Both the position numbers and the translations under genes were made by a program. 64,000 nt of DNA from Aspergillus flavus (lineage: Eukaryota > Ascomycota > Eurotiomycetes > Eurotiales > Aspergillaceae), in assembly GCF_009017415.1 (NCBI RefSeq), contig NC_092410.1, positions 1,488,001 through 1,552,000 on the forward strand, read 5' to 3'. This document shows positions 1 to 37,231 of this stretch, one piece after another; positions within the stretch are counted from its first letter, which is position 1; each line of letters begins with the position of its first letter. The notes under the pieces are model-generated. The model worked only from the letters and a program-made list of their open reading frames with translations. It searched no databases and was not told the origin of the DNA.

Positions 1-1016
1 TGATAGGGTAGGATCAGCCTTCCAAGTCTCCTTTACAGACTCTTTTTGTATACCCTGAGAGCACAAAGTTCAATAGATCGACCTATCCATCGAGACTCTT
101 GAAGATTAGTTCTCCGGAAATTGTTTCCGTGACAAGGATTGGATGTTGGTTGTGTTTTAAGTATCTTCTATTTATGAATAGTTCTGCAATAGTGTGTGCG
201 CCACGGCTGAATCTGGGATCTGCAGATCATCCGCAGTACAGACGATACGATGGTTTTTTTCGGATTTGATTCGGTCTTACTGTCGGGGAAGATTTCTTCA
301 GGAATTATTTGATTTTCAGAATCTTCTCGTCGTTCGAACTTTGTGCATATGCTATGGCAAAGGTTCGGGCCGATAGAATTCGTGGACGTGAGATTAACAC
401 CTATCTTAAATTCGCCTACAGCTATACACCACCAAAACTAGATTTTTTTAGACCGATATTATACAAGAAAAAGATGGAACAGCTGTATAGTCCTATTATA
501 TATGTTCACTCATATATTGGCCTAGATTGTTTCTGTATTGAATTCGATTTTGATATTCTCTTTAGTACAATCAAGCTGAAGTAGAAATCTCCAGGAATGT
601 AACTAATTACAAGAATCCAGGGCTATCCTTGCGCGGCTATTGTACTAAAATTCCAGTAAGTGGAACAATATAATTATAATATACAAGATACTTCATGTTG
701 ACCTCTAGAGTGTTAAGAGTATATATCACTAATCAAAACCGACTTCCCCTCCATCTGCACGATGATACAACCAATGCGACGTCACCCCACCGAACAGCAC
801 ATCAATCATCCGTCCACAGGTTAAATATCAATAACCTAACTTGTAATCTTCTTCCTCTTAGGTAGATAAATTAACCACACAAACTCAATATTCTATCCCA
901 ACATCAACTCAATACCAGCACATCTACTACCACTACCGCCTACACTGTATAACACCCCTCACCCCGCTTCCATCACTTCTACTTCCATCAGCTATACAAC
1001 CAACTCCGCCAACACA
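1..1016. other. Intergenic region and promoter of the Tm-1-like gene
   Basis: No convincing gene; the short ORFs lack codon bias and recognisable content. The last 250 bases are C/A-rich, like a fungal 5' leader, and hold the CRE-like word at 775-784. Confidence 0.6.
775..784 (-). promoter_or_regulatory. CRE-like word TGACGTCGCA upstream of the Tm-1-like gene
   Basis: The minus strand reads TGACGTCGCA, about 235 bases before the start codon of the UPF0261 gene. The identical ten bases occur on the plus strand at 7840-7849 before the partner TIM-barrel gene. TGACGT is the core bound by bZIP factors of the ATF/CREB type. A role in co-regulation is inferred. Confidence 0.45.
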
Positions 1017-2300
1017 ATGAATAACAAAATGCAATCCCCCACAATCCTCCTCCTAGGAACCTTCGACACCAAAACTCCCGAATTAACCTACACCCACCAA
1101 ACCCTCCTCACCCAAACCCCGCAACCAAACATCCTAGTCCTAGACGTCAGCCACCACCCCCCACCAACAACAACAACAACCTCAACAACCGACCTAAATA
1201 TCACCCACACAATCCCCCAAAAAGACCTGCCGGCCCCACGAGCCGAATACATCAAAGCCGCCTCCGAGCACGCCACCACCATCGTCGCAGACCTGTACAA
1301 GGCGAACAAAATCCACGGCATTATTTCCATAGGCGGATCATGCGGGACGAATATCGCGACGGCGGCGATGCGGAATGCCCTTCCTGTTGGGTTCCCGAAA
1401 CTGATGGTCTCGACGATGGCGAGCGGAGATGTCAAGCCGTATGTTGAGGAGACAGATGTAACGATGATGTATAGCGTTGTTGATATTGCGGGGAGGAATT
1501 GGATTCTGGAGGGGATATTGCGGAATGCTGCGTGTGCCATATTTGGGATGGCGGGGGGATATTATGAATCTTTGCTGAAGTCTCAGAGTCATAGAGAGGG
1601 TGGTAATGGGGGTTCCCGGGGAAAGAAGAGGGTTGGGATTACTATGTTTGGGGTGACGACGCCGGGGGTGGATCGCATTCGAGCCCATTTAGAGGATGTC
1701 TACGGGTTTGAGGTCTATGTGTTTCATGCGACGGGGGCTGGGGGCAAGGCGATGGAACGGCTGATACGGGAAGGGCAGCTGGATGCTGTTGTGGATTTGA
1801 CGACAAGTGAGGTTGTTGATGAGGTTATGGGGGGTGTGCTCTCTGCTGGGCCGGAGCGGTTGGTTGCTGCTGCGAGGGCAGGCATTCCGCAGGTGGTCAG
1901 TGTTGGGGCTTGCGATATGGTCAATTTTGGACCACGAAATACCATCCCCGAGCGGTATGAGGGACGGTTGATCTATGAGCATAATCCGACGGTAACGTTG
2001 GTGAGGCCCAATGCTGAGGAGACGGTGGAGGTGGCCAAATTTATTGCGGAGAAGTTGAGGTCTTGTGCTGTCAAGCCGGAGTTGATTCGTTTGGTGCTTC
2101 CTACTGGGGGAATTAGTATGATTGATACCCCTGGACAGCCATTTTATGATCCCGAGGTCGATGAGGTGTTGTTTCTTACGTTGGAGAAGGAGTTGGATGG
2201 GACTGGTATTTCTATTCTTAGGGACCCGAGAGCTATCAATGATCCCGAGTTTGCGGTCAGTGTGGCGGATATGCTGGGAGATTTGGTCAAATCATTGTAA
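1017..2300 (+). CDS. Tm-1-like ATP-binding domain protein (UPF0261 family)
   Basis: A single-exon gene for a 427-residue protein matching the UPF0261/Tm-1 N-terminal family. Visible marks are the N-terminal LLLGTFDTK strand (residues 11-19), the glycine-rich GGSCGTNIATAA stretch (about 106-117), the long conserved block PKLMVSTMASGDVKPY (about 127-142) followed by a DVTMMYSVVDIAGRN segment, and a second nucleotide-binding-like domain with HATGAGGKAMERL. In plants this domain is the N-terminal half of Tm-1, fused to a TIM barrel; here the barrel is a separate gene at 8023-9082. The molecular activity of the fungal proteins is not established. Residues 45-60 are a low-complexity His/Pro/Thr insert. 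The first ATG is used; a second Met follows at residue 5. Family assignment is firm, function is not. Confidence 0.88.
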   Translation: MNNKMQSPTILLLGTFDTKTPELTYTHQTLLTQTPQPNILVLDVSHHPPPTTTTTSTTDLNITHTIPQKDLPAPRAEYIKAASEHATTIVADLYKANKIHGIISIGGSCGTNIATAAMRNALPVGFPKLMVSTMASGDVKPYVEETDVTMMYSVVDIAGRNWILEGILRNAACAIFGMAGGYYESLLKSQSHREGGNGGSRGKKRVGITMFGVTTPGVDRIRAHLEDVYGFEVYVFHATGAGGKAMERLIREGQLDAVVDLTTSEVVDEVMGGVLSAGPERLVAAARAGIPQVVSVGACDMVNFGPRNTIPERYEGRLIYEHNPTVTLVRPNAEETVEVAKFIAEKLRSCAVKPELIRLVLPTGGISMIDTPGQPFYDPEVDEVLFLTLEKELDGTGISILRDPRAINDPEFAVSVADMLGDLVKSL

Positions 2301-15545: not shown

Positions 15546-17512
<1,967 letters not shown>

Positions 17513-18945
17513 GGTGTACGGGCAAACCCAACCCACGTCACTTGACGTCGGGACAGTCTCCTGGTATCCGGGAGAGAGATTTAGACCGTTTGGTTTGAAT
17601 CCAGGAACAAAGTTCGCGAAGGGTCGAACGCAAGTGCCACCCGGAGAGAAGGTAAGAGAAGAGTGAGGCGGGGAGATCACTCGGCGGTATGGGGTGTTTG
17701 TCCTTGAGCACTCCAGACTTCACAAGCGTTAGCCCACATCGCCACCGCGCGATCGAGCAGACAGGTATACTACATACCAATAAAAAGGATCGCAATCTTG
17801 CCAGTTGCAGAATCCACAGGATTTAACCGAGATTGTCAACCAGGCTCAACCAGCCATGCACAGTGCGTCACGATCGCCTGGAATGGCCGGTGCAATTGGA
17901 AGCGAAAAAACCTGACCGCCTGGGGCATGAGGGACCAGAGGGGGCGAGGACCTTGGGAGCGTTCTGAGATGTATAAATGAAGTGATCTTCAGTATAGAGT
18001 TATGATTCGCCTTGCGGTGATTCTATCACACATAAGTTTCAGTCACCAAATCCAGACAACGGTTGAGGACCTTGGGAGAAAAGCAGTCTTTGAGTACCTT
18101 GCGGGTTAGGGCGTCATTGCCCGCCTGGCCTCGGCGAATCAGCGCACCCAGATTTGCGAAGTTCCTTTTATCTCGGTACCCAGTTTTTCAGGCATTCAAA
18201 AAGGTTTGCTGTACAGAGTATGTGTCCAGAGTAGGATTAACTAGTCTGTGACTGCCTCATGGGTCACGGGTGAGGGGTGAAAGAAAAAAGTTAAAAGAAA
18301 ATTAAAATCTCGAAAGGCAGATTGCCTGTGGAATCAGGCTCCATCCTTTCCCACTTCCCTGGCACCACTTTTACCCAGAGCGGAGCCCACTGATGTTCGT
18401 CGATGACCTTACGAGTCGCTGTAAAACCATGGATCCAGTCGAAACAGAGATAAGCTGTGCATGCTAGAACCGTAATAGTAGGAACACATATTGCCAGCAA
18501 AACTCCTCATCCCGATAATGTTTATTTTGTGATATTGTTTGCTATATTCAATTGATATGGGTGAGACTGAGGGCAGTACGGAATACTGTCCGTCCTTACT
18601 GAGGAATGCGAATGCAATGCGGGCACCAGACCACGTGCACCGGCCGTTCTTACTCCAGATCGTCATCCCCGATCGGTAGGCTACAGCCTAATGAACTTCT
18701 TATCTCCGTACAATCTTCAATCTCAACGGCTCCATCAACCTTCAATCGCATTACCCCACAACCAAAACTACCAATCTGACATATCAATCACATCAATCGA
18801 GCCTCCCAGCCCTGTCGGAACCCGTCACACAGCGAGACACATACACTGCATGGCCGATCACCACCGCTAAACCCAATCAATCCTTCCAGTCCTCCACCTC
18901 ACCTCACCAATCCACCAACCTCAAGGACAAACCAAACCCGGAAAA
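17513..18945. other. Intergenic region, zafA promoter
   Basis: No gene found. Three ACCTTG words lie at 17950, 18069 and 18096, two of them inside an identical 14-base repeat. The last 250 bases form the leader of the small gene at 18946. Confidence 0.55.
17946..18101. promoter_or_regulatory. Three ACCTTG (CAAGGT) words upstream of zafA, two in a 14-bp direct repeat
   Basis: GAGGACCTTGGGAG occurs at 17946-17959 and again at 18065-18078, and ACCTTG a third time at 18096-18101. Read toward zafA these are CAAGGT, the core of the zinc-response element in ZafA/Zap1 targets. They lie about 440-590 bases before the zafA start. Autoregulation, known for yeast ZAP1, is inferred. Confidence 0.5.
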
Positions 18946-19691: not shown

Positions 19692-22600
19692 TTAAAGCAC
19701 ATTATAACGTCCTCCAACCGGTGCCCTCGCATCACTATCGGCAGCAGCGATAGTTCCCTCCTTAAGTAACCGCATCAACTCACGCATGGCGTTCGTCACA
19801 GATAACTCAGTTTCACCCTCAACAAGAATATACAGTTTGGGGTTCTCTCCAGGACCTGGCTCCTTGCCAGTAGCATAGAAACTGCCTTTCGTGGTAATGG
19901 ATGTCCCTGTGGCTTCGAGAATCTTGGCCACGTTGGTCCGGTTGGTGACTGCCCACCGAGCTTTCTCTGTTGTGAGAGACCGTGTTAGTAGCTGAATCAG
20001 AAAGCCGACAGCGGGGGGTAAACTTACGGGGGAAGTCATTGATCTCAAGCGTAGCATGGAAAGCTCCGGCATCAGGCCCGCGGTTATCGATGGGCACTCC
20101 AGACCTCATCACACCAGCACGGCTCAAACGAGCGTGAATATCAGCAACAGCCGAACCCACCTTGTCCAACGGGTTCTTCGAACCATTGGCGTCCTTTTCA
20201 GTCTTGTGCACGGTGATCTTGCCGTCCAGATCAATGCCCTTAGGAACGCCAGGTAGGCTTGGCGCAGCGGCGGATTGAACCGATGAGAGAACCTTATTGA
20301 ACTGTTCTTCGGCCTTCTCGTTCTTCTCTTCCTTTTCTTCCTCTTCTTCGCCCTCGTCGCCAGTCTTGTATGTCTTGCGCTCACGCATACGAGCAGCATC
20401 TCGCTCCTGATCAAGGCGCTCCAGACCCTTTCCACCGAAACCAGACGCACTGGCTTTTTCTTTGCCTGCTTTGACCTTCTCTAAGAAGGAGTCAACCATC
20501 TTCTGCACAGGCTCCGGCACGGACTGTCCACTCTGCTTCAACGCCTTAGCAATATCAACGGAATACCGCTCCTGGTCTTCGGTCAGGAACGTAACCGCCG
20601 TACCAGTATTACCAGCTCGGCCAGTTCGTCCAGCACGGTGGACATAGTCTTCGAGATGGTTCGGCGCATCATAGTTCACCACGAGTTTGAGTTGTTTCAC
20701 ATCCAAACCACGGGCCGCAACAGACGTGGCGATCAAAACCGGGAAAATACCTGCTTTGAAGTCTTCGATGGTGGAGTCACGGTCAATCTGATCCTTACCT
20801 CCGTGGATGGACATGCAAGGATAACCCTTACGCATCAACTCACGAAGTAGTGTATCGGCGCCCTCCTGACGTTCAACGAAAATCAACGCCCGTGCGTCTT
20901 CGTTTTCGTCGGTAGAGTACAGGTTACCTAGAAGCTCCAGAAGCCGGATAAACTTCTTGTCCTCACTCCGAACTTCCACTATCTGTGTGATCTCAGGCGC
21001 AACAACGCTTCTACCGCCAACCACAATTTCAACGGGCTTGTTCAAGGTCTTACGGGCCAAAGCCTCCATGTTCCGCGGGAAGGTAGCAGAGAACAAGACA
21101 GTTTGCTTATCAGGTCGGACGTTGGCCAAGATCTTCATGACTTGAGGCTCGAACCCCATATCGAACATGCGATCAGCTTCGTCCAGGACGACATATGTGA
21201 CCCTGCGTAAGTTTGTAACTCTGCCAGCATTCGCTGCTAGCAAATCAATCATACGCCCAGGTGTGCAGACAATAATCTCCGCGCCACGCTTTAGGTCAGC
21301 AATTTGATCTTTGATGGGAGCGCCACCATAAGCGCAAACCGCACGAAGGTTCAAAGCTTTCAAAAACGGTTTACAGTCTTTATGGATCTGGGTTGCCAGT
21401 TCACGAGTTGGTGTCATAATGAGACCAACGGGACCTTCCATATTCTCCAATGGCCGTTGATCCTTAATATGCCGAAACATAGGGATCAAGAATGCAATCG
21501 TTTTACCCGAACCAGTCTTCGCTACACCGATTACATCACGGCCGGACATGATCGCTGGGATGGCTTGCGCTTGGATCGAAGTGGGTGCAGAATAGCCCAA
21601 TCTATCGATTACGTCCAAGGTTTGCACACCTAAGCCGCACTGAGACCATTTCGACACTGGCCTTGGAACCTCCACACCACGGACTTTGATGCCGTCGAGT
21701 TCCAATCGCAGACTAGCAGCCTCTTCCTCGGACATCGCTGCCAGATCAGAAGGCTCGGTGTAAAACTTCTTGCGGAAAGGCTCGTATTCCACCTTCTTGT
21801 GATCAACAGTTGGGATATCCTTCTTCTTTTTGGCCTTGTTAGCAATAGCAAGGAAATCATCTGCATCGCCGTCGCCGACAGCAGTCATGTCCATATCATT
21901 CTCATCTCCAAAGAGAGCCTCAGGCTGTTGTGGTTTAGCTTTCGCGAACTTGGCGCCAGCCGTTTTTTTCGGAGGGGCAGACTCTGCTAATTCAGACATG
22001 AAGGCATCCAGGGGATCAACTTCTTCCTCTTCTTGGGCGTCCACTTCCATCTTGTCGGGCGCTTTTTGATTCGACGCATCGCTCATCTGTACATCGCCAT
22101 TTGATTGAGAATCACGAGCCTCATTCTGCAGTCGCTCTTCTCTCCTCTCTGCTGCTGCCCGCGCCGCAGCCGCATTTTCCTCCTCAGTGTCACCATCCTG
22201 CATGTCAACGTCATCGTCTTCGTCTTCTGCCGTCACATCTTCTTCCTTATTGGAGTCTTTGGCGTCATCTAGCGGAGGAGTTGGCAACCTCTCCAACTTC
22301 CGCCGGGTAGATTCTTCTTCGCCAAAGCCGAGGGTCTTCGTCGCTGACGCTTTCTCGGTATCTGCGGCCTGCTTGGTACCCAGGCCAAAACTACCCACGT
22401 TTCCCTTTACTTTCAATGCTACAAATGTCGTGTTAGTAGGGTCTAAGTCAGAATGAGCAGAAGGCTGAGACGTACATGATGTTTTGCTTGAAGTAGCAGA
22501 AGGTTTGTTAGCTTGAACCTCAGTCTTTGTAGAAGGGAAGGTAGCAGATGTCTTAGCGGACGGCGGAACAGCAATATCATCCCCCAGTACAGACTTCACA

Positions 22601-23491
22601 GCTGGCGCCGGTGCGGCATTCTTTGCAATCGCCTTCGGGTCAAACTTTCCAGTATACGACGCTGGGGCAGCATCAATGGGCGTCGCAGAAGACTGGGGAG
22701 ACCCAACAGCTGGTGATAAGCCTGACTTTCTGTCAATCTCATCCAGGATGCTTCTTGTCCCACCAGCTGCGGCGGCTTCTCGTTGTTTGCGTTCCTTCTC
22801 TGCGGCTTGCTTTTGCTTCCAAGCTTCGAGCTTGGCCAGTCTTTCGGCTCGCTTTTCGTCTTCTGTCGGACCAGTGTTGGCCGCTGGTGTCGAAGGCTTC
22901 GATGCCTGTGAGATAATACGGTCGATGAGTACACGGCTATAGAATCGAAGGGGACCATATGCGCTTACCTCTCGAGACCTGGGAACGGAATCTCTGGCCC
23001 GCTCCCGGCTATCATCCCGTCTAGACTTGTGTTTCAAGTCAGCAGAATCATCTGTCCGTCTCCGAGCCCTGTCGCGGGAATCATCTCGCCTGCTTCGAAA
23101 GTCTCTATCGCGACTTCTGCGACGGTAATCCCGATCATCATCTCTATCTCTCGACCGACGTCGATCGCGGGAACGATCCCGTCGACTTGGTCTATACGTA
23201 TCTTCATCACGGTAATCGGCGCGTCTGTCTAGCGAGCGGTCACGTCTACGATATGAATCACGGTCGCGTTCACGGTCACGGTATCGCTTCTGGAAGTAGA
23301 TATTAGAGAAGAGATAAGGGTAGGACTGGGACATCCGATTGACATACCTCAGGGCTACGAGATCTTCGGTAGCTCCGCCCATCATCTCGCCTGCTCCTCT
23401 CATAGCGATCATCATCTCTGCGACTCCGTCTGGAAGAAGAATATGTGCTGCCTACAGGTGATGGTGAGCGAGTATCCCCGTGGCGAGCCAT
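19692..23491 (-). CDS. prp5: DEAD-box RNA helicase Prp5 (pre-mRNA splicing)
   Basis: Five exons: complement of 23348-23491, 22969-23289, 22476-22905, 20028-22418 and 19692-19966, about 1186 residues. An N-terminal Arg/Asp/Ser-rich RS-like region (RRRDRS, RSRDRD repeats) precedes an acidic middle. The helicase core has all motifs: Q motif ([10 protein letters not shown]), [50 protein letters not shown] and [18 protein letters not shown] and the upstream block [16 protein letters not shown], containing the DPLD-type segment EVDPLDAFM before it, identify the Prp5 (DDX46) subgroup, which remodels U2 snRNP during prespliceosome assembly. The two introns at 22419-22475 (57 bases, clear CTAAC branch) and 22906-22968 (63 bases) are both stop-free and in frame, so unspliced forms would still be coding. 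The second is less certain. Confidence 0.93.
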
Positions 23492-28181: not shown

Positions 28182-31100
28182 ATGGAAAGTATGCGCCTTG
28201 TTCGCCATCATGGACTCGAAGTCGACCCCGAGAGGCCTCTATACTCCCATTATTGTTTAGTCGAGAATGAGCAGAAAAACAAATACTCGGTCCAATCACG
28301 AATAGCAGGACACAATGAGCGATTCTCCAAAGCATCTCTGGCTCTCGAGATAGAGCTCCGGACGCCAACCCCTCAGCCCTACGACCAACCCCCTCCATCC
28401 TATGACGATGCTATCAAAGACTTGCCTCCAGATTACTCTACGCTTTCGCCATTAGCCGAACGGAAAGATTTGTGTGGTGACGGCACGCCCTCGATAGAAA
28501 CAAAAGATCTCAATAGTAGATCTAAGTCGCCTCTAATCGATTTTCGTCACCCATTTGGCATACGGGAACATAAGGGACCGGGCAAGAAGAAGAAAGCAAA
28601 GCAAGCCGCACAACAGAGTACCCCGCCGCCGAACGACGACGGTGATAAAAGCCCGCCGCCTGATGAAAATCAGAATGGCGGGGACGGCGGAAGCAACGCA
28701 GGTGGATCGGGAGATGGGAATGGAGACAACGGTGGTGACGGAGGCGGCGGGGATGGCGGAGACGATGATGGTTGGGGAGATGCGTGGAATACAAACAGCA
28801 AGAAAAAAGACAAGAAGAAGAAGAAAGAGGAAGAAGAGCGGCTAGCCAAAGAAGAGGAGGAGCGGAAGGCTAAAGAGGAGGAGGAGAAAAAGGCCGCAGA
28901 AGAAGCAGCGGCTAATGCTCATAGTGATGATCTTAGTTGGGCAAACGATGGCAGTGGAAATGGCGATGATTCGTGGGCGGACTTTGCGCTTGCAGGAAAT
29001 AAAAAGAATAAAAAGAAGGATCAAGTACGGTTCCCCCTCGGTTTTAGGGTATCATCACTAATTCCTTTATAGGGTGCCACTCTGATTGACACCGGACCTC
29101 CTTCCAATTCTTTTCAGGATATCAATTTAGGTGGCAATACATCACCGCCAAATCTAAGCCTAGACCCCCTTGGAGGCAAATCTACTGGCGGAGGCCTGGA
29201 ATTTGGCGGTTGGGATAAGAGTTGGAATACGGGGAGTAAATGGGGTCTCGACTCTCTTGGTGGCATGAACGGGGAAAAGACACAGAATACCAACCCGTGG
29301 TCATTTGGCTCAGCGGATCCATTGAATGCTTCAGTCGGATTTGGCTTTGGTTTCGGAGCCCCTCCTCCTCCTACCAATGGAGATGTTGGCACACAAGAAA
29401 AGAAGGATAACTGGGGATTCCTGGATACTAAGAAGAAGGCCGAACCAGAGCCGGAGATGGCTGATGACGATGATTGGGGCTGGGGCGTCTCAACTAAGAA
29501 GAAAGACAAGAAAAAGAAGGACGGTGCTATCCTCGAGGAGCTGGAACCAGTAGTGGAAAATCCTCCAGTAGTCGCAGATCCAGCGCCGGAGCCTGTCCCT
29601 GAGGAAAAAAAGGAGGAGGATGACTGGACAGGCTGGAATGTCCCGACAAAAGAGAAGAAAAAGAAGAAGGGTAAAGGTGCGGCAGAGCCCGAGCCAGTGC
29701 TTGAACCTGAGCCCGAACCGGAACCCCCAGCACCTGCTGAGCCAGAGCCAGAGCCAGAGCCTAAGTTGCCTGATGATCCACTTTACAATAATTGGGACAC
29801 GCTATCATCTAAAGACCGAAAGAAACGAGAGAAATCTCTTGTCAAGAAAGGTCTCCCCATACCTGGTAAGGACTTTGAATGGCCCCCAAAAGCGCCAGCT
29901 GCTCCTGTCGAAGAGCCGACGAAAGAGCCCGAATCGGAACTCCAACCGGAAACTGAGCATGAACCAACGCCTGAACCTGAGCCAGAGCCCGCAGCTGAAC
30001 CTGAACCGGAGCCAGCCTTGGAGCCAGAGCCCGCAGCAGAGCCAGAGTCAGAACCAGCACCTGAAGCTAAACTGCCAGATGATCCACTCTATAACAACTG
30101 GGACAATCTTTCATCAAAAGACAAAAAGAAACGCGAGAAATCCTTGATGAAAAAAGGCCTCCCAATTCCCGGGAAAGATTTCGAGTGGCCACCACCTGCC
30201 CCTGCCCCTGCACCTGCAGCGGAAGAGCCAGCGCCAGAACCAGAACCAGTTGCTGAACCAGAACCGGAACCTGCGGCTGCACCCGAACCAGAGCCAACTC
30301 CAGAACTGGAGCCAGTAGCGGAGCCAGAACCACAACCTGCGTCCGAAGCTAAACTGCCAGATGATCCTCTTTACAACAATTGGGACTATCTTTCGCCTAA
30401 AGACATAAAAAAGCGTGAGAAGTCATTGATTAAGAAAGGTCTCCCAGTTCCTGGCAAGGATTTCCCATGGCCACCGCCACCGCCACCAGAGCCTGTATTA
30501 GAGGAACCAGCAGCAGAGCCAATAGTAGAAGATGTACCGGAACCAGTGGTGGAACCAGCGCCAGAGCCAGAGCAAGCACCAGAACCAGAACCGGTACTTG
30601 AACCCGAACCCGAACCTGAACCCGAACCTGCAGGCGAGCCAGAACCACAACCTGTGCCTGAAGCAAAACTACCAGATGATCCTCTTTATAACAACTGGGA
30701 CGATCTTTCATCTAAGGACCGGAAGAAGCGCGAGAAATCACTGACAAAGAAGGGTCTACCAATCCCTGGCAAGGATTTTGCCTGGCCACCACCTCCACCA
30801 CCAGAACCAGTGGTAGAAGAGCCAGAGCCAGAGCCAGAACCAGAGCCGGTACTTGAACCCGAACCTGAGCCTGAGCCCGAGCCCGAGCCCGAGCCTCAAG
30901 TTGAGGCTGAACCCGAACCCGAATCAAAGGCTTTATCACTGCCAGATGACCCGCTCTATAATAATTGGGACGAGCTCTCAGCTAAAGACAAGAAAAAGCG
31001 TGAGAAATCACTCACCAAGAAGGGTTTGCCAATTCCTGGTAAGGATTTTGACTGGCCACCAGCTCCACCGCCAGAGGCAGTGATAGAAGAACCAGCGCCA

Positions 31101-34100
31101 GAACCGGAGCCGGCACTTGAACCTGAGCCCGAGCCCGAGCCCGAGCCCGAGCCTCAAGCTGAGCCTGAGCCTGAACCGCAACTGGAATTGGAATCGGAAC
31201 CCAAGGCCCCGTCACTGCCCGATGACCCGCTCTATAATAATTGGGACGAGCTCTCAGCTAAAGACAAGAAAAAGCGTGAGAAATCACTCATCAAGAAGGG
31301 TCTGCCAGTTCCAGGTAAGGATTTTGACTGGCCACCACCTCCACCTCCAGAGCCAGTGGCAGAAGAGTCTATACAAGAGCCAGTGCCAGAGCCCGAGGCG
31401 GCACTTGAACTTGAGCCTGAGCTTGAGCCCGAGCCTCAAGCTGAGCCTGAGCCTGAACCCGAACAGCAACCGGAATCGGAACCTAAGGCTCCATTATTGC
31501 CTGATGACCCGCTCTATAATAACTGGGATGACCTCTCATCCAAGGACCGGAAGAAGCGCGAGAAATCATTGATGAAGAAGGGTCTGCCGATTCCAGGTAA
31601 GGATTTTGACTGGCCACCACCTCCGCCACCGGAGCCATTGGCGGAGGAGCCCGTACCAGATCCTGCACCAGAGCCAGTACCGGAAGCTGAACCAGAACCG
31701 GAGCCCGTCTTTGAACCTGTCCCTGAAGAGCCAGAGCCTCAAGCTGAGCCTGAACCAGAACAAGAGCCGGAATCCAAAACTCCCTCACTGCCAGATGATC
31801 CGCTCTACAATAACTGGGATAACCTCTCCTCTAAGGATCGAAAGAAGCGAGAAAAATCGTTAATAAAGAAGGGTTTGCCTATTCCTGGTAAAGACTTTGA
31901 GTGGCCACCACAAGTGGTGCCTGTAGCAGAGGAGCCTGTACAAGAACCAGAGCCAGAACCAGTTCGGGAGCCCACCCCAGAACCAGAGGTTATCCCTGAA
32001 CCAGTTACCGAAGAACCAATTGATGATAGCTGGGGCATCTGGGCTCCTCAAAAGGATAAGAAGAAGTCTAAGAAGAGCAAGATTAATGATGAACCTCCAC
32101 CGCCGGCGCCTACTCCACCTTCTCTGGGATTATCGCTGGAACCTGACGCTTTTGAGAGTATACCAGAGGAGCCTCTTTGGGATGAATTTAGCACAATGCC
32201 TTCTAAAAAGAAGGGCCTCGTTGCGGAGGAAACGCCGTCAAAGCCAGCCAGAGGGTTCTGGGCAAGCTTCGGAGCAGCAGCGATGGGGATGCCTAAAGCC
32301 ACTAAAAAGAAGTCGGCAGAAAAGCCAATAAAAGAGCCGGAGCCCCAGCCCGAACAGGATGATCTGCTTATTGACGTAGGGGATGCGCCGAGAGAGGCTG
32401 GTGCGGCTGACGCGGCTGACGCGCCAGTCGCAGAAGTCGAACCTCAGCCAGCCGCGCCGCCAACAAAGACACCTGTTGTCACGTCAAAGACCAAGTCATC
32501 AACCAAGAACTCTGTCGCGGAGCGCATTAAGGCCCTTGAAGAGAAAAAGAAAGAAAAGTCCAAGGGAAAGTCGACAGAAAAATCAAAAGCGAAGGAGGTG
32601 CCGCCGCCGGTAGAAGACCCTCCAGAACCTCCGCAGGAACCGGAGCCGGAGCCAGAACCTGAACCAGTTATAGAAAGAAGGATCTTACGAGACACCGTAC
32701 CAGGAAGCTTTCCAGACGCTTTTGACGACGATTTCGATGACCTCCCACCCCCTGCCCCAGAACCGCCAGCAGAGCCCGAGCCGGAAGTACAGCCTGAACC
32801 TGAACCTCAGCCCGAGCCTGAACCAGAAAAGCAGCCAGAAGTAGAGCCTGAGCCGGTAGTATTGTCCAAGAAGGCCAAAAAGAAAGACAAGAAGAAATCG
32901 AAGACTGCTGTTCCAGAGCCTCAGCCGCCTGCTCCAGAGCCTTCGGCACCCGAACTGCCAGCAGAGCCAGAGCCTGTGCCGGAGCCTGCGCCACCAGAAG
33001 AGGTTGTGCCTGTTGCTGAACCTGAGCCGGAACCAGTTCCCGAACCAGAGCCCGTACTTCTTCCCAAAGCAGAAAAGAAGAAAAAGAAGGCTAAGGCCGT
33101 CGAGCCGCAACCCGCACCTGAACCTGAACCAGAGCCAGAGCCGGTCCCCCCACCCAAAGTCGAAAAGAAGAAAAAGAAGGCTAAGGCGGTTGAGCCCCAA
33201 CCTGTGCCTGAACCAGAGCCAGAGCCAGAACCGGTGCGAGCGCTTGATCCTGAACCTGAACACGAACCCGAACCTGAGCCCGAACCTGCTCCTGTCAATG
33301 TGCCGGAGCCCGAGCCCGAGCCAGCGTTTGAGCCCGCTGAGCCGCCTGCCCCAGAGCCTGAAAAGCCCATGAAGAAAATCAGGAAAAGTAGAAGGTCAGT
33401 GCCAGTTCCAGAACCACCACCAGCTCCTCCTGCAGAAGCCCCAGTGGCCGATGCTCCAGAGGAAGCTGCTGGAGGTCCTCCGACACCGCCACCTGAACCC
33501 GTTGCGCCGGAGCGAGCGGCAAGAAAGGAGCGCCCGCGTGTTGAACGTGCGCCTGGTAGCACGTCTTGGGATATGTGGGGTGCTGCACCCCCACCGAGGA
33601 GGTCAGGTCATAGGGAAGAGAAGCATAGAAGAAGGGAGCAATCGCCTTCGGGGATGGGAAGATCAAAGTCCACTAGACACTCAAGGCCAAGGGAACCGGA
33701 GGACGAGCCAGAGAGATCGCTGGAACCCGAGAACGACAGGCAACGAGAACCCGCACTCAATCGGGCTGGGGCATTCTCGAATTTTATTTTTGGCGCACCA
33801 CCTCCGCCTACCAGAACGAAATCTAGCAGGAGACATGGCGAGCATGCCCCAAGGCACACGTCGCGGCGCCCACCTGTAGATATGGATGACACTGGGTTCC
33901 CATCGCCGCCGCCGGATGAGCAGTTCGAGATGCCTGATAAGGCTGCCCGCATGATGGGTGCTCCACCATCTGGGTCAAGACGAGAGAGGCCGCGTGGCTC
34001 GCGGAAAAGATCTAGTATGGCCTTCTATGTTCGTGTCACTCTTAGTAAAGTTAACTAACACGGTCATCGTAGGCGCTCGTGATCCGTATGCTATTGACGA

Positions 34101-35638
34101 TGAAGACATCGTTATGGTCAACCCGGATGATGCTGACGGTGAGCCCAAGGCTCCCTCTAGAGAGTCGCGTCATTCAGAGCGACGGTCAAGGAAGAAGGTA
34201 AGAGAGCAGCGTTACCGGCAACTGACATCAACTGGTTGGAACAGCAGCTAATGTCGCTTCTATAATATAGTCACGATCACGACAGGGAGACCTCCAAGAC
34301 GATGCTGTCATGGTCGATGCAGACCCAGCTCAGACGAGTCCGGACATTGTTTCCGGACCTGATGACATGGCATTTGTGGAGGCTCCGAGGGAACGGCGTT
34401 TGAGACGATCAAATACCGCTCCCAAGAAACAGGAGACTGGCGGTCTTATGGGGCTGATCGGAACTTTGCGTCAACACATTCGCCCTGAACTGCCTGAACG
34501 CCAAAAGTCTAGGTCTTACAAGGACGAGGATGCCAAGTACATGACGGAGCCAGAGCGAGAGGACGCTCGGCGCCAGAGACGGGACGAGAGGAGAAGACGC
34601 GCAATGAGACCGGACCCTGACCGTGAGGGCTATGCTACCGATGCTGGACCAGCAATGGCTGTCCCGGAAATTCAGATAGAAGATGTCGATGCTAGGAGAG
34701 AGGCGCGCAGAGCACGGCGCGCTTCTCGACAGGGCGACGTTGATCCGTATCAAGACAACGAGTTTCAAGAAGCCGAAGAACGACGAGCAAGACGGCGGGA
34801 AAGGCAAAGGGCTCGTGAGCGCGAGATGCAAGAGATGCAACTCCGAGAGGAAGAGGAGAGAGCACAGCGACGCCGAGAGGAGAAGATGGCTCGTCGGGCT
34901 GCTCGTGAAGAGCGCCGTGCCCGGGAGGAGCAAGAAGCTCGAGAGGCGGAAGCGCAGGCACAGGAAGCCAGAGAAGTGGAGGCCCGCGAAGCTAGGGCTG
35001 CGGAACGCCGCGAACGGAGGCGGCAGGAAAGGGAGGCAGGAATATATGAGAACCCTAGCTACGACCCGAGATCCAGAAAGCGGCACTCGTATATGGATGA
35101 TAGAGCCGCCAGGGACTTCTACATGCAGGGCGGGGACCCGGACAGGGCCTATCGCTCTCGCCGTCATGGAGACGACGGTGAACACGCTAGACGCCGAAGG
35201 TCCAGGGCGCCCGAGGAGACGAGACCTCTACCTATGATGCCTGGACAGCGCAAAGATAAGACCTCTTCTTGGGTTAATTCACAAGCAAGTGACCCCCCCG
35301 AGCCACCGCCGGTTGTGCCAACTATGTTGGACATGCCGCCTGCTCCGGGAGAGCCCATGGATGGGGCACACTCAATCTCATCGGACGAGGAGGCCCGACG
35401 CGACCTACGCCGGAAGGCAAGAAGACGGGCCAGATACCCCGGACTTACCGACCAGGAGATTGAGGAGGAGCGCTTGAGGAAACGCGAGGCTCGGAGGTCT
35501 GAGAGAGGACAGAAGAGCAGCTCCGGTAGTGCAGACTACGAACGAGACCGTGGAATGAGATATGACCGCTACGACCAACCACCTCCTAGTTCTGGAGGGA
35601 AGCTGCCTAACTGGTTTAAGAAACTTACCAGCTTTTAA
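28182..35638 (+). CDS. Giant low-complexity repeat protein with eight W/K modules and Glu-Pro spacers
   Basis: Four exons (28182-29024, 29073-34014, 34073-34197, 34271-35638) give about 2425 residues; acceptor 29118 instead of 29073 would remove 15. In order: an N-terminal part with PPxY-type motifs ([14 protein letters not shown]); Gly/Asp-rich and acidic/Lys-rich stretches; eight near-identical 43-residue modules starting [11 protein letters not shown] and ending near GKDFxWPPPPP (residues about 513-1230), separated by 45-60 residues of (E/P)-repeat; further EPEP and KKKK tracts to about 1800; a Pro-rich stretch with GAPPPP motifs; a highly charged Arg/Glu helix (about 2150-2230, probable coiled coil); and a C-terminus [12 protein letters not shown]. 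Short motifs such as [17 protein letters not shown] recur. No signal peptide, membrane segment or enzyme domain. I recognise no family. Its disorder and length recall septal-pore and Woronin-body tether proteins, but that is only a hypothesis. Confidence 0.8.
29766..31920 (+). repeat. Eight tandem intragenic repeats, 270-315 bp period
   Basis: Units begin at 29766, 30072, 30354, 30669, 30939, 31215, 31497 and 31788. Each has a conserved 130-base core (module starting [11 protein letters not shown]) and a variable spacer of GAG/GAA-CCA/CCC/CCT codons. Cores differ mainly at a few positions (the residue after NNWD, S/A/P in LSSKD, I or V in GLPIPG). Unit length varies by multiples of three. Confidence 0.92.
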
Positions 35639-36012: not shown

Positions 36013-37231
36013 TTACAACACTCCACCCTCATCCTCCTTCCTCCTCTTCTCCAAATACATCCTCCCGCCCTCATAAATCCCTAGATAAATACTCATCCCA
36101 AAAGCCGACCAAACCGACCTCAACGCACCTCCACGAAACAACCCCCTAAGGCCCTCCTCCTTCCACACTTCCCTCCCAACCGCCAACGTCCCCTTCACCT
36201 TCCTAACCGTCTTCTCCGTCCCCTTCAACTCCTCCCCGCCAGCCCCCAACATAACCCTCGTCTTAACAACATCAATCGGCGTCGTAACAACCGAAGCCAC
36301 AGTCCCAGACACTCCAGCCGCAATCCCCGTCAAAACCGCCCTCTCAAACACCCCATTCCCATTCTTGCCTCCATTCCTATCACCATTTCTCCTCTCCCGA
36401 CCCCTCCAAGAAACAAGCCACCTCCTCACCCCCTCAAAAATCGGAAAATGCAACCCCGTAAACGGCAGATTCCTACCCACAAGCGCCGTATACCCACTCC
36501 ACAACTTCCAAGGCCTGTGTCTGAACTTCGCCAAGACCTGGATTGTAGCGCCTTGTCTGGGTGTCTTTGTGCTGGTGGAGGTTGGGGAGTTCATGTCCAG
36601 GACTTGGGCGTTTTGCTTTAGGACTTCTGCGGGGGTGAGGATTGCGCAGGAGACCATTTCACCAAGGGAGGAGGAGAGGGCGTGGATTAGGGGTGTGGGG
36701 AGGGGGTGGGTGAATGGGAGGGGGTTTTGGGATGAAGATTGGGATTGAGATTGGGACTGGATGGAGGAGAGGGTTAGGATGTGTTTTGAGCTTTCGTAGG
36801 TTGTGAAGAATGCTCCTGCTTTTTTAGGTCAGTTCTTGTGGTTGTGATTGTTGGGTGAATGGTGAGGTAGAAGAGTTGTACATGAAGGTACCGTTGCGAG
36901 TACAACGCTCCATACGCCCTGGTATAACCCCCGGAAGAGGACGTCTCGTTTTATAGCGCCTGTTGCGTCTTTGTAGAGGTGGTTGTAGTTTGGTGATTGG
37001 ATGCGCGTTTTGAGTGTGTCCATTGGGTATACTAGGAAGTCGACTGTTACGGCTGCTAGGGCGCCGGCCTTTTTTGTTTGTTAGTTAATCCATTGAGGGT
37101 TGGTTCTATTGGACTTCGTTTGAGGTTGCTAGGAGTTGGATATGGGGATGTTGTGTATAGGGTGCAAGATAGGGCATGATGTGGTGGAGTATATGACTTA
37201 CAACCCAGATATCGAGGCTACTGTTATCCAT
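36013..37231 (-). CDS. Mitochondrial carrier family protein (S-adenosylmethionine-carrier-like)
   Basis: Three exons: complement of 37202-37231, 36882-37068 and 36013-36818, giving 340 residues. Three carrier repeats are visible through their Px(D/E)xx(K/R) signatures: YPMDTLKTRIQ in repeat 1, LTPAEVLKQNAQ in repeat 2 and TTPIDVVKTRVM in repeat 3. The Glu in PAEVLKQ, the VDFLVYPMDTLKTR start and GAFFTTYESSKH are typical of the Pet8/SAMC subgroup that imports S-adenosylmethionine into the matrix. The loop between repeats 1 and 2 has a Gln/Ser run, and the loop before repeat 3 an Arg/Gly/Asn insert (RERRNGDRNGGKNGNG). The first exon encodes only ten residues (MDNSSLDIWV). Subfamily assignment is probable rather than certain. 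Confidence 0.82.

Follow-up and report, generated by a model that had tools for sequence, protein, structure and literature searches.

We analyzed a 64,000-nucleotide stretch of the Aspergillus flavus genome (contig NC_092410.1, positions 1,488,001 to 1,552,000; hereafter the window), in which the region 28182-35638 of the plus strand carries one predicted gene with four exons and three GT..AG introns of 48, 58 and 73 bases. The gene encodes a protein of 2,425 amino acids (aa), which we call the scaffold protein. It holds eight copies of a conserved module, and the same module also occurs on BTB-type proteins. A preliminary description of this DNA had proposed a single gene for one long multivalent repeat protein, and an open predicted four-exon frame indeed runs across the whole region. 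The parts of the gene are the following.

28182-29024, plus strand: exon 1, with the N-terminus, two PPxY motifs, a Gly/Asp-rich stretch and the first Trp/Lys motifs
28392-28403 and 28425-28436, plus strand: PPSY and PPDY, at aa 71 and 82, in conserved columns of a 19-sequence alignment
28761-28826, plus strand: short acidic-Trp/poly-Lys motif of 22 residues
29073-34014, plus strand: exon 2, holding all eight modules
29265-29354, plus strand: internal Met and 19-residue stretch aligning (BLASTP) with the start of the BTB fusion on contig C4
29463-29669, plus strand: two short motifs (19 and 17 residues) directly before the array
29766-29888, plus strand: module 1, residue 513
30072-30194, plus strand: module 2, residue 615
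30354-30476, plus strand: module 3, residue 709
30669-30791, plus strand: module 4, residue 814
30939-31061, plus strand: module 5, residue 904
31215-31337, plus strand: module 6, residue 996, a recent pair with module 5
31497-31619, plus strand: module 7, residue 1090
31788-31910, plus strand: module 8, residue 1187
32022-32120, plus strand: conserved landmark after the array, 18 residues ... PPPAPTPP
32169-32216, plus strand: short motif of 16 residues
32511-32540, plus strand: 10-residue stretch, family-conserved in the 19-sequence alignment
33564-33809, plus strand: 11- and 12-residue stretches, family-conserved in the same alignment
34073-34197, plus strand: exon 3, with a conserved 14-residue stretch
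34271-35638, plus strand: exon 4, with a 12-residue motif, an Arg/Glu-rich stretch, a 10-residue motif and the stop codon
35600-35635, plus strand: C-terminal tail of 12 residues with a conserved aromatic-basic-hydrophobic end, a possible membrane contact

Several alternative splice choices of the gene are also stop-free. For intron 1, we assembled three alternatives, giving proteins of 2,410, 2,425 or 2,418 aa, and picked 29025-29072 because the 18 residues thus retained resemble ELVDAEPPASSFQEVSL of the A. ochraceoroseus relative; the residues kept by this 48-base intron resemble the A. hiratsukae relative as well. The family searches, the 19-sequence alignment and the motif counts used the 2,410-residue alternative as the query, without 15 of the intron-1 residues, and the composition figures come from the 2,418-residue alternative. 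The PPxY motifs of the preliminary description are present, two in number. We found no hydrophobic segment in the scaffold protein, the best 19-residue Kyte-Doolittle mean being 0.65.

The array consists, as had been described, of eight modules between Glu/Pro spacers, and the tandem-repeat finder TRF also detects it; the conserved unit is about 41 residues long rather than the 43 first given. Spacers 1-7 measure 49-64 aa, with 62-76% Pro+Glu. Comparing all 28 module pairs, we obtained a mean proportion of synonymous differences (pS) of 0.74 and a mean proportion of nonsynonymous differences (pN) of 0.064 (pN/pS 0.086, the ratio of the means), with 16 of the pairs at or beyond the Jukes-Cantor limit used (pS 0.74). 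Modules 5 and 6 stand out as a recent pair (pS 0.12). Thus, most module copies are old, with synonymous sites near saturation and the protein sequence under selection; the modules are translated and under purifying selection. Searching the genome with a 50-residue query, we found at least ten modules, namely the eight of the scaffold and two on contig C4.

The module had no convincing match in Pfam and no PDB sequence match at E<0.01; the best PDB match was an engineered protein (E 0.018), and the best of the other search had an E-value of 0.34. A Pfam scan of the three large scaffold frames returned no known domain, BTB included. The Procyclic acidic repetitive protein family (PF05887) scored 21.9 bits against a gathering score of 100 bits and was rejected; we read this similarity as a product of the Glu-Pro composition.

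When a single module was modeled alone by AlphaFold2, the mean predicted local distance difference test score (pLDDT) was 80.7, with core block means of 87, 91 and 85 and a helix at residues 18-31. The two modules were also the best modeled parts of the BTB protein P0135 (block means up to 88 and 85; 48.7 for the whole protein). The module is therefore predicted to take a fairly confident helix-and-loop form, a small folded bead. The protein had been described as disordered. This fits the spacers, as gauged by composition on the TOP-IDP scale, but not the modules, which AlphaFold2 predicts to be ordered.

From sequence comparison, the module or the short acidic-Trp/poly-Lys motif (the sticker) is common to the scaffold and to BTB-type proteins, in several arrangements and in both orders. 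Two such proteins lie in the same genome.

C4 4073263-4074696, minus strand: gene with two modules followed by a BTB exon
C7 about 1985.4-1986.7 kb (open reading frame (ORF) 2428-3306 of C7:1983000-1989000), minus strand: BTB-type protein whose tail carries the short motif DDGWGAWAPLRKRGKNKKKNKK

The C4 protein shows 96% identity to an A. flavus protein (best local alignment), and from its first Met onward it aligns with the scaffold protein from the internal Met at 29265 (BLASTP E 7e-11, in a two-sequence comparison with no composition correction). Its BTB exon alone scores 17.3 bits, below the Pfam cut-off of 20.5. A search with the C4 module part scored 598 candidates, of which 17 proteins reached E<=0.001. 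Seven of these, from A. flavus and relatives, carry modules and then BTB (P0132, P0133, P0135, P0136, P0139, P0141 and P0143, with P0141 and P0143 being incomplete sequences); PF00651 is precomputed for all except P0141, and the BTB domain of P0135 reaches 30.5 bits. Six others (P0137, P0138, P0140, P0142, P0145 and P0146), from A. niger, A. ibericus and A. sclerotiicarbonarius, begin with a BTB-type domain and continue with modules. We call the second group the Nigri type, after the section. The reversed domain order points to at least two independent BTB arrangements. P0134, a module protein of 302 residues, stops ahead of any BTB.

P0130 (A. flavus) and P0131 (A. oryzae) are partial, more diverged copies of the scaffold N-terminal half with three modules; P0130 lacks a BTB, and in P0131 a BTB follows the modules, an arrangement less secure for coming from a single annotated protein. 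No copy of this type turned up in the searches of this genome, and its presence may differ by strain.

The C7 protein is linked to the scaffold by the sticker. The codon pattern for DDxWGxW gave five matches in the genome against none for the reversed control pattern: one in the scaffold, one in the C7 protein, one in a kinase-like frame and two in no motif-holding listed ORF (>=60 aa). Performing BLASTP against the BTB region of P0131 in a ten-sequence database, we obtained E-values of 1e-38 for C7, 1e-23 for P0145 and 2e-9 for P0137. Elsewhere on C7 (C7:697000-701000, ORF 852-1973, plus strand), another frame matches the BTB fusion protein weakly (E 8.7e-4); it has an Asp/Gln/Gly-rich insert, and no module was seen in it. 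A literature search on BTB and Aspergillus found nothing relevant among the papers listed.

The scaffold belongs to a larger family. Among 7,974 scored candidates from 5.8 billion proteins searched, at least 138 relatives were found at E<=0.001, 120 of them being listed; a search with residues 1730-2060 gave 34 relatives among 5,834 candidates. The named relatives come from Aspergillus, Monascus, Coccidioides, Paracoccidioides, Histoplasma, Ophidiomyces, lichen-forming fungi, Dothideomycetes and Chaetothyriales. Only two Aspergillus relatives, P0001 and P0002, are among the matches listed, where nearly all names are 'hypothetical' or 'uncharacterized'. The preliminary description had called the protein unassigned; it is no orphan and belongs to an uncharacterized Pezizomycotina-wide family. 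Searching by module fragment, locus tag or topic, with most subscription journals outside the search, we found no published description of the protein.

An alignment of 18 relatives with the window protein showed conservation of PPxY, the Trp/Lys motifs, SWxxWGAAP, DPYAID, SGPDD, DKTSSWV and the C-terminal WFKK, together with a further 24-residue stretch. For family statistics we used 130 proteins (P0001-P0129 and the window protein), taken together as putative orthologs. The aromatic-basic-hydrophobic pattern occurs in the last 14 residues of 116 of the 130, versus 29 of 17,921 14-mers elsewhere.

All five short acidic-Trp/poly-Lys motifs first quoted from the flanking parts are present. By a strict rule, such motifs number 7.0 per protein on average across the 130, versus 0.09 in composition-preserving shuffles; the A. 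flavus scaffold has four. We aligned 400 sampled of 996 short motifs to the module, counting a pass when at most 5 of 100 shuffles aligned as well. The pass rate was 59.8%, against 8.5% for Lys-rich Trp-free control segments (400 of 780), a control that is not fully fair since the short motifs were preselected for acid-Trp-Lys order. Four of the six listed motif segments of the window protein itself passed. These figures bear out the two nested repeat levels that had been described, with modules and short motifs following a common plan.

The relatives also bear on the origin of the array. Three Aspergillaceae proteins, P0001, P0002 and P0003, have one complete module each, placed ahead of a DxSWGIW...PPPAPTPP landmark, and the same landmark follows the eight-module array in the window protein. 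Upstream of the single module, all three have a Trp/Lys motif and a Glu/Pro stretch; in P0002 and P0003 this motif is closely like the 17-residue motif of the window protein, and in P0001 it is a different one, DDGWGWGFTATDKKKKKKGK. P0144 (701 residues), a relative grouped with the scaffold, also has one module. The position of the single module before the shared landmark indicates that the module predates the array, and growth in place from one module is the simplest reading of these sequences. This differs from the first proposal, that the array expanded straight from the small motif, in that the module existed first.

The module itself may go back to the short motif. Module-less relatives carry short motifs (a 16-residue one, or WAGLSAKERKKKEK) that are close in sequence to the module core, and in some distant relatives a short W..LSxKDKKKKEK motif stands around the module's place. 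A W..LSxK[DE]KK core lies within 170 residues before the landmark in 42 of 89 landmark proteins, the landmark being loosely defined in this test and misplaced in some proteins; the 42 include the four module proteins (P0001-P0003 and the window protein), and 69 more core matches lie elsewhere, the other modules of the window protein included. This is suggestive, and no proof, of an origin of the module by elaboration of a short motif. Probably, a short motif became the module, which multiplied in place.

We favor, with a probability of roughly 40%, the view that the protein is a long cytoplasmic multivalent scaffold working with BTB-type adaptors. Extended Glu/Pro spacers would separate the eight beads and the stickers, and bead and sticker would dock the same class of partner, or each other. 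The aromatic-basic tail at the C-terminus may touch a membrane, and the N-terminal PPxY pair may recruit a WW-domain protein, for example a Nedd4-type ubiquitin ligase; the genome has 10 WW-domain matches, 9 of them above the cut-off and three in one 419-aa frame. BTB/POZ-type proteins with the same modules or stickers would serve as oligomerizing adaptors of the scaffold network. The docking, the membrane contact, the ligase recruitment and the cellular role are what we infer. When a motif is fused to a second type of protein, a shared function is usually suspected, and the fusion is no proof of it.

Several results weigh against this view. A protein search of the genome with three joined short motifs (E<=10) returned the scaffold alone and not the C7 protein, which leaves the DDxWGxW pattern and our reading of the sequence as the basis of the sticker link to C7. 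The BTB label of the Nigri-type and C7 proteins comes from BLASTP to P0131, plus the source names of P0140, P0145 and P0146; Pfam gave no BTB match in P0137, P0145 or the C7 frame, and the BTB of P0131 itself reaches 19.0 bits, just under the cut-off of 20.5. A PDB profile search with the Nigri-group profile yielded no BTB, and when the two BTB groups were compared by hhalign, the alignment covered the modules and not the BTB parts. The module model has a predicted template modeling score (pTM) of 0.51, was built from ten near-identical sequences and found no structural neighbor in a fold search; the module may thus be a helix with loops and not a stable domain. The hydrophobic moment of the tail exceeds that of shuffled sequences only modestly, reaching p<=0.05 in 20 of 78 distinct tails. 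[PL]PxY occurs in the first 250 residues of 57 of 123 Met-starting family proteins, a count in which many models look shortened. Lastly, no more than 3 of the remaining 129 family proteins match the module pattern, which argues for a lineage add-on and not a core function.

Part of the evidence could also describe a structural tether or elastic spacer at the septum or cortex, similar to Leashin (Lah), in which the array sets length only and the conserved ends do the work. Module number varies in the central array while both ends are conserved, and Leashin likewise is very long, with conserved ends and poorly conserved acidic, Pro/Glu-rich repeats between them (PMC2690989). A mere spacer, however, is not expected to keep its module at a pN/pS of 0.086, and the modules on BTB proteins are left unexplained; we consider this reading unlikely. 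Leashin tethers Woronin bodies, to which its N-terminal domain attaches by way of WSC. Reported as Pezizomycotina-specific (PMC10023807), it has a C-terminal membrane-spanning region (PMC5345055), and its predicted forms range from 5,936 aa in A. nidulans to 10,821 aa at the Neurospora locus, for two proteins (PMC2690989). The scaffold, unlike it, has 2,425 aa, repeats of another sequence and no hydrophobic segment, and we reject identity with Leashin because of size (2,425 versus at least about 5,900 aa) and the missing membrane segment. The septal-pore proteins SPA and SPP, from a screen that took in 776 proteins, are alike in having large disordered regions, some Pro-rich, and some are Pezizomycotina-specific; their disordered parts favor Arg and His and avoid Lys and Gly (PMC10023807), whereas the scaffold has 8.6% Lys, 6.9% Arg and 0.9% His. 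In passages of PMC7275032 on Spitzenkörper scaffolds, nothing similar to the scaffold protein was found.

The repeats might also have grown mostly neutrally, with slippage expanding the module, gene conversion or recent duplication keeping the copies alike, and the BTB fusions as by-products. The recent pair of modules 5 and 6 (pS 0.12) would suit this, as would P0130 and P0131, which look like the birth and decay of duplicates. Gene conversion would, however, also even out synonymous sites, yet their mean pS is 0.74 with 16 of 28 pairs at or beyond the limit, and such growth seems to us quite improbable. A somewhat less improbable account places the proteins in a ubiquitin-ligase pathway, the BTB fusion being a Cul3 adaptor and the scaffold a multivalent substrate or platform, as with SPOP. 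Cullins are present in this genome, PPxY would add a second ligase, and a structural comparison with the BTB fusion model ranks SPOP chains first and KBTBD Cul3 adaptors next; the query-normalized TM-scores of these neighbors are at most 0.20, so that they give a fold class at most. From residue 271 onward, the BTB part of this model is also of low quality, with block means of 27-68, and fungal BTB proteins need not bind Cul3. The fusion proteins resemble SPOP and other BTB adaptors in their BTB domain, above the Pfam cut-off in P0135, but P0135 has no MATH domain by Pfam, its extra part being the module array, and the scaffold itself is without BTB. Least probable, and very doubtful in our eyes, is an Argonaute-type GW/WG platform, where the Trp motifs would be Argonaute hooks and the protein a fungal counterpart of GW182 or the plant GW/WG proteins. 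GW182/TNRC6 and the plant proteins share with this family many Trp beside Gly in acidic sequence: 2,054 of 3,900 Trp touch Gly in the 130 proteins, against about 562 expected from composition, and the surroundings of the Trp motifs are acidic and of low complexity. The genome also has three Piwi-domain matches, all above the cut-off. Of the 37 Trp in the window protein, however, no more than 9 lie beside a Gly, and its modules have NWD and WPP instead. Lys runs after each Trp are not a known feature of Argonaute hooks; the PPxY and WFKK ends likewise set the scaffold apart, and the BTB fusions are no natural fit. Searching the literature on GW repeats, we saw no fungal GW protein by title among the matches listed.

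A mitochondrial carrier frame lies just downstream of the scaffold gene (36013-36657, minus strand). Elsewhere, the window has a 501-residue His/Cys-rich frame (16175-17680, minus strand) with repeated Cys and His motifs and no Pfam match at 0.001, which looks like a metal-binding protein; a 1,198-residue frame (19819-23415, minus strand) that has DEAD-box helicase domains and is rich in Arg, Asp and Ser at its N-terminus; and a protein of the uncharacterized UPF0261 family (1017-2300, plus strand).

Returning to the scaffold working with BTB-type adaptors, we offer a history of the module as a tentative proposal, which we hold somewhat less firmly than the scaffold view itself. A short Trp-Leu-Ser-x-Lys motif would have gained flanking DPLY and 13-residue segments in Aspergillaceae, folded into a bead, a new mini-domain, grown from one copy to eight within the array position in this lineage, and been taken up by BTB proteins on more than one occasion and in both orders, giving a private binding currency between scaffold and adaptors. 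Should beads and BTB fusions have a partner in common, it would be reachable directly by pull-down with one 41-residue peptide. In this case, living relatives may still show the steps by which a short linear motif turned into a folded repeat and then into a shuffled domain, and the scaffold draws attention to a protein family of multicellular molds that is large, conserved and apparently unstudied.

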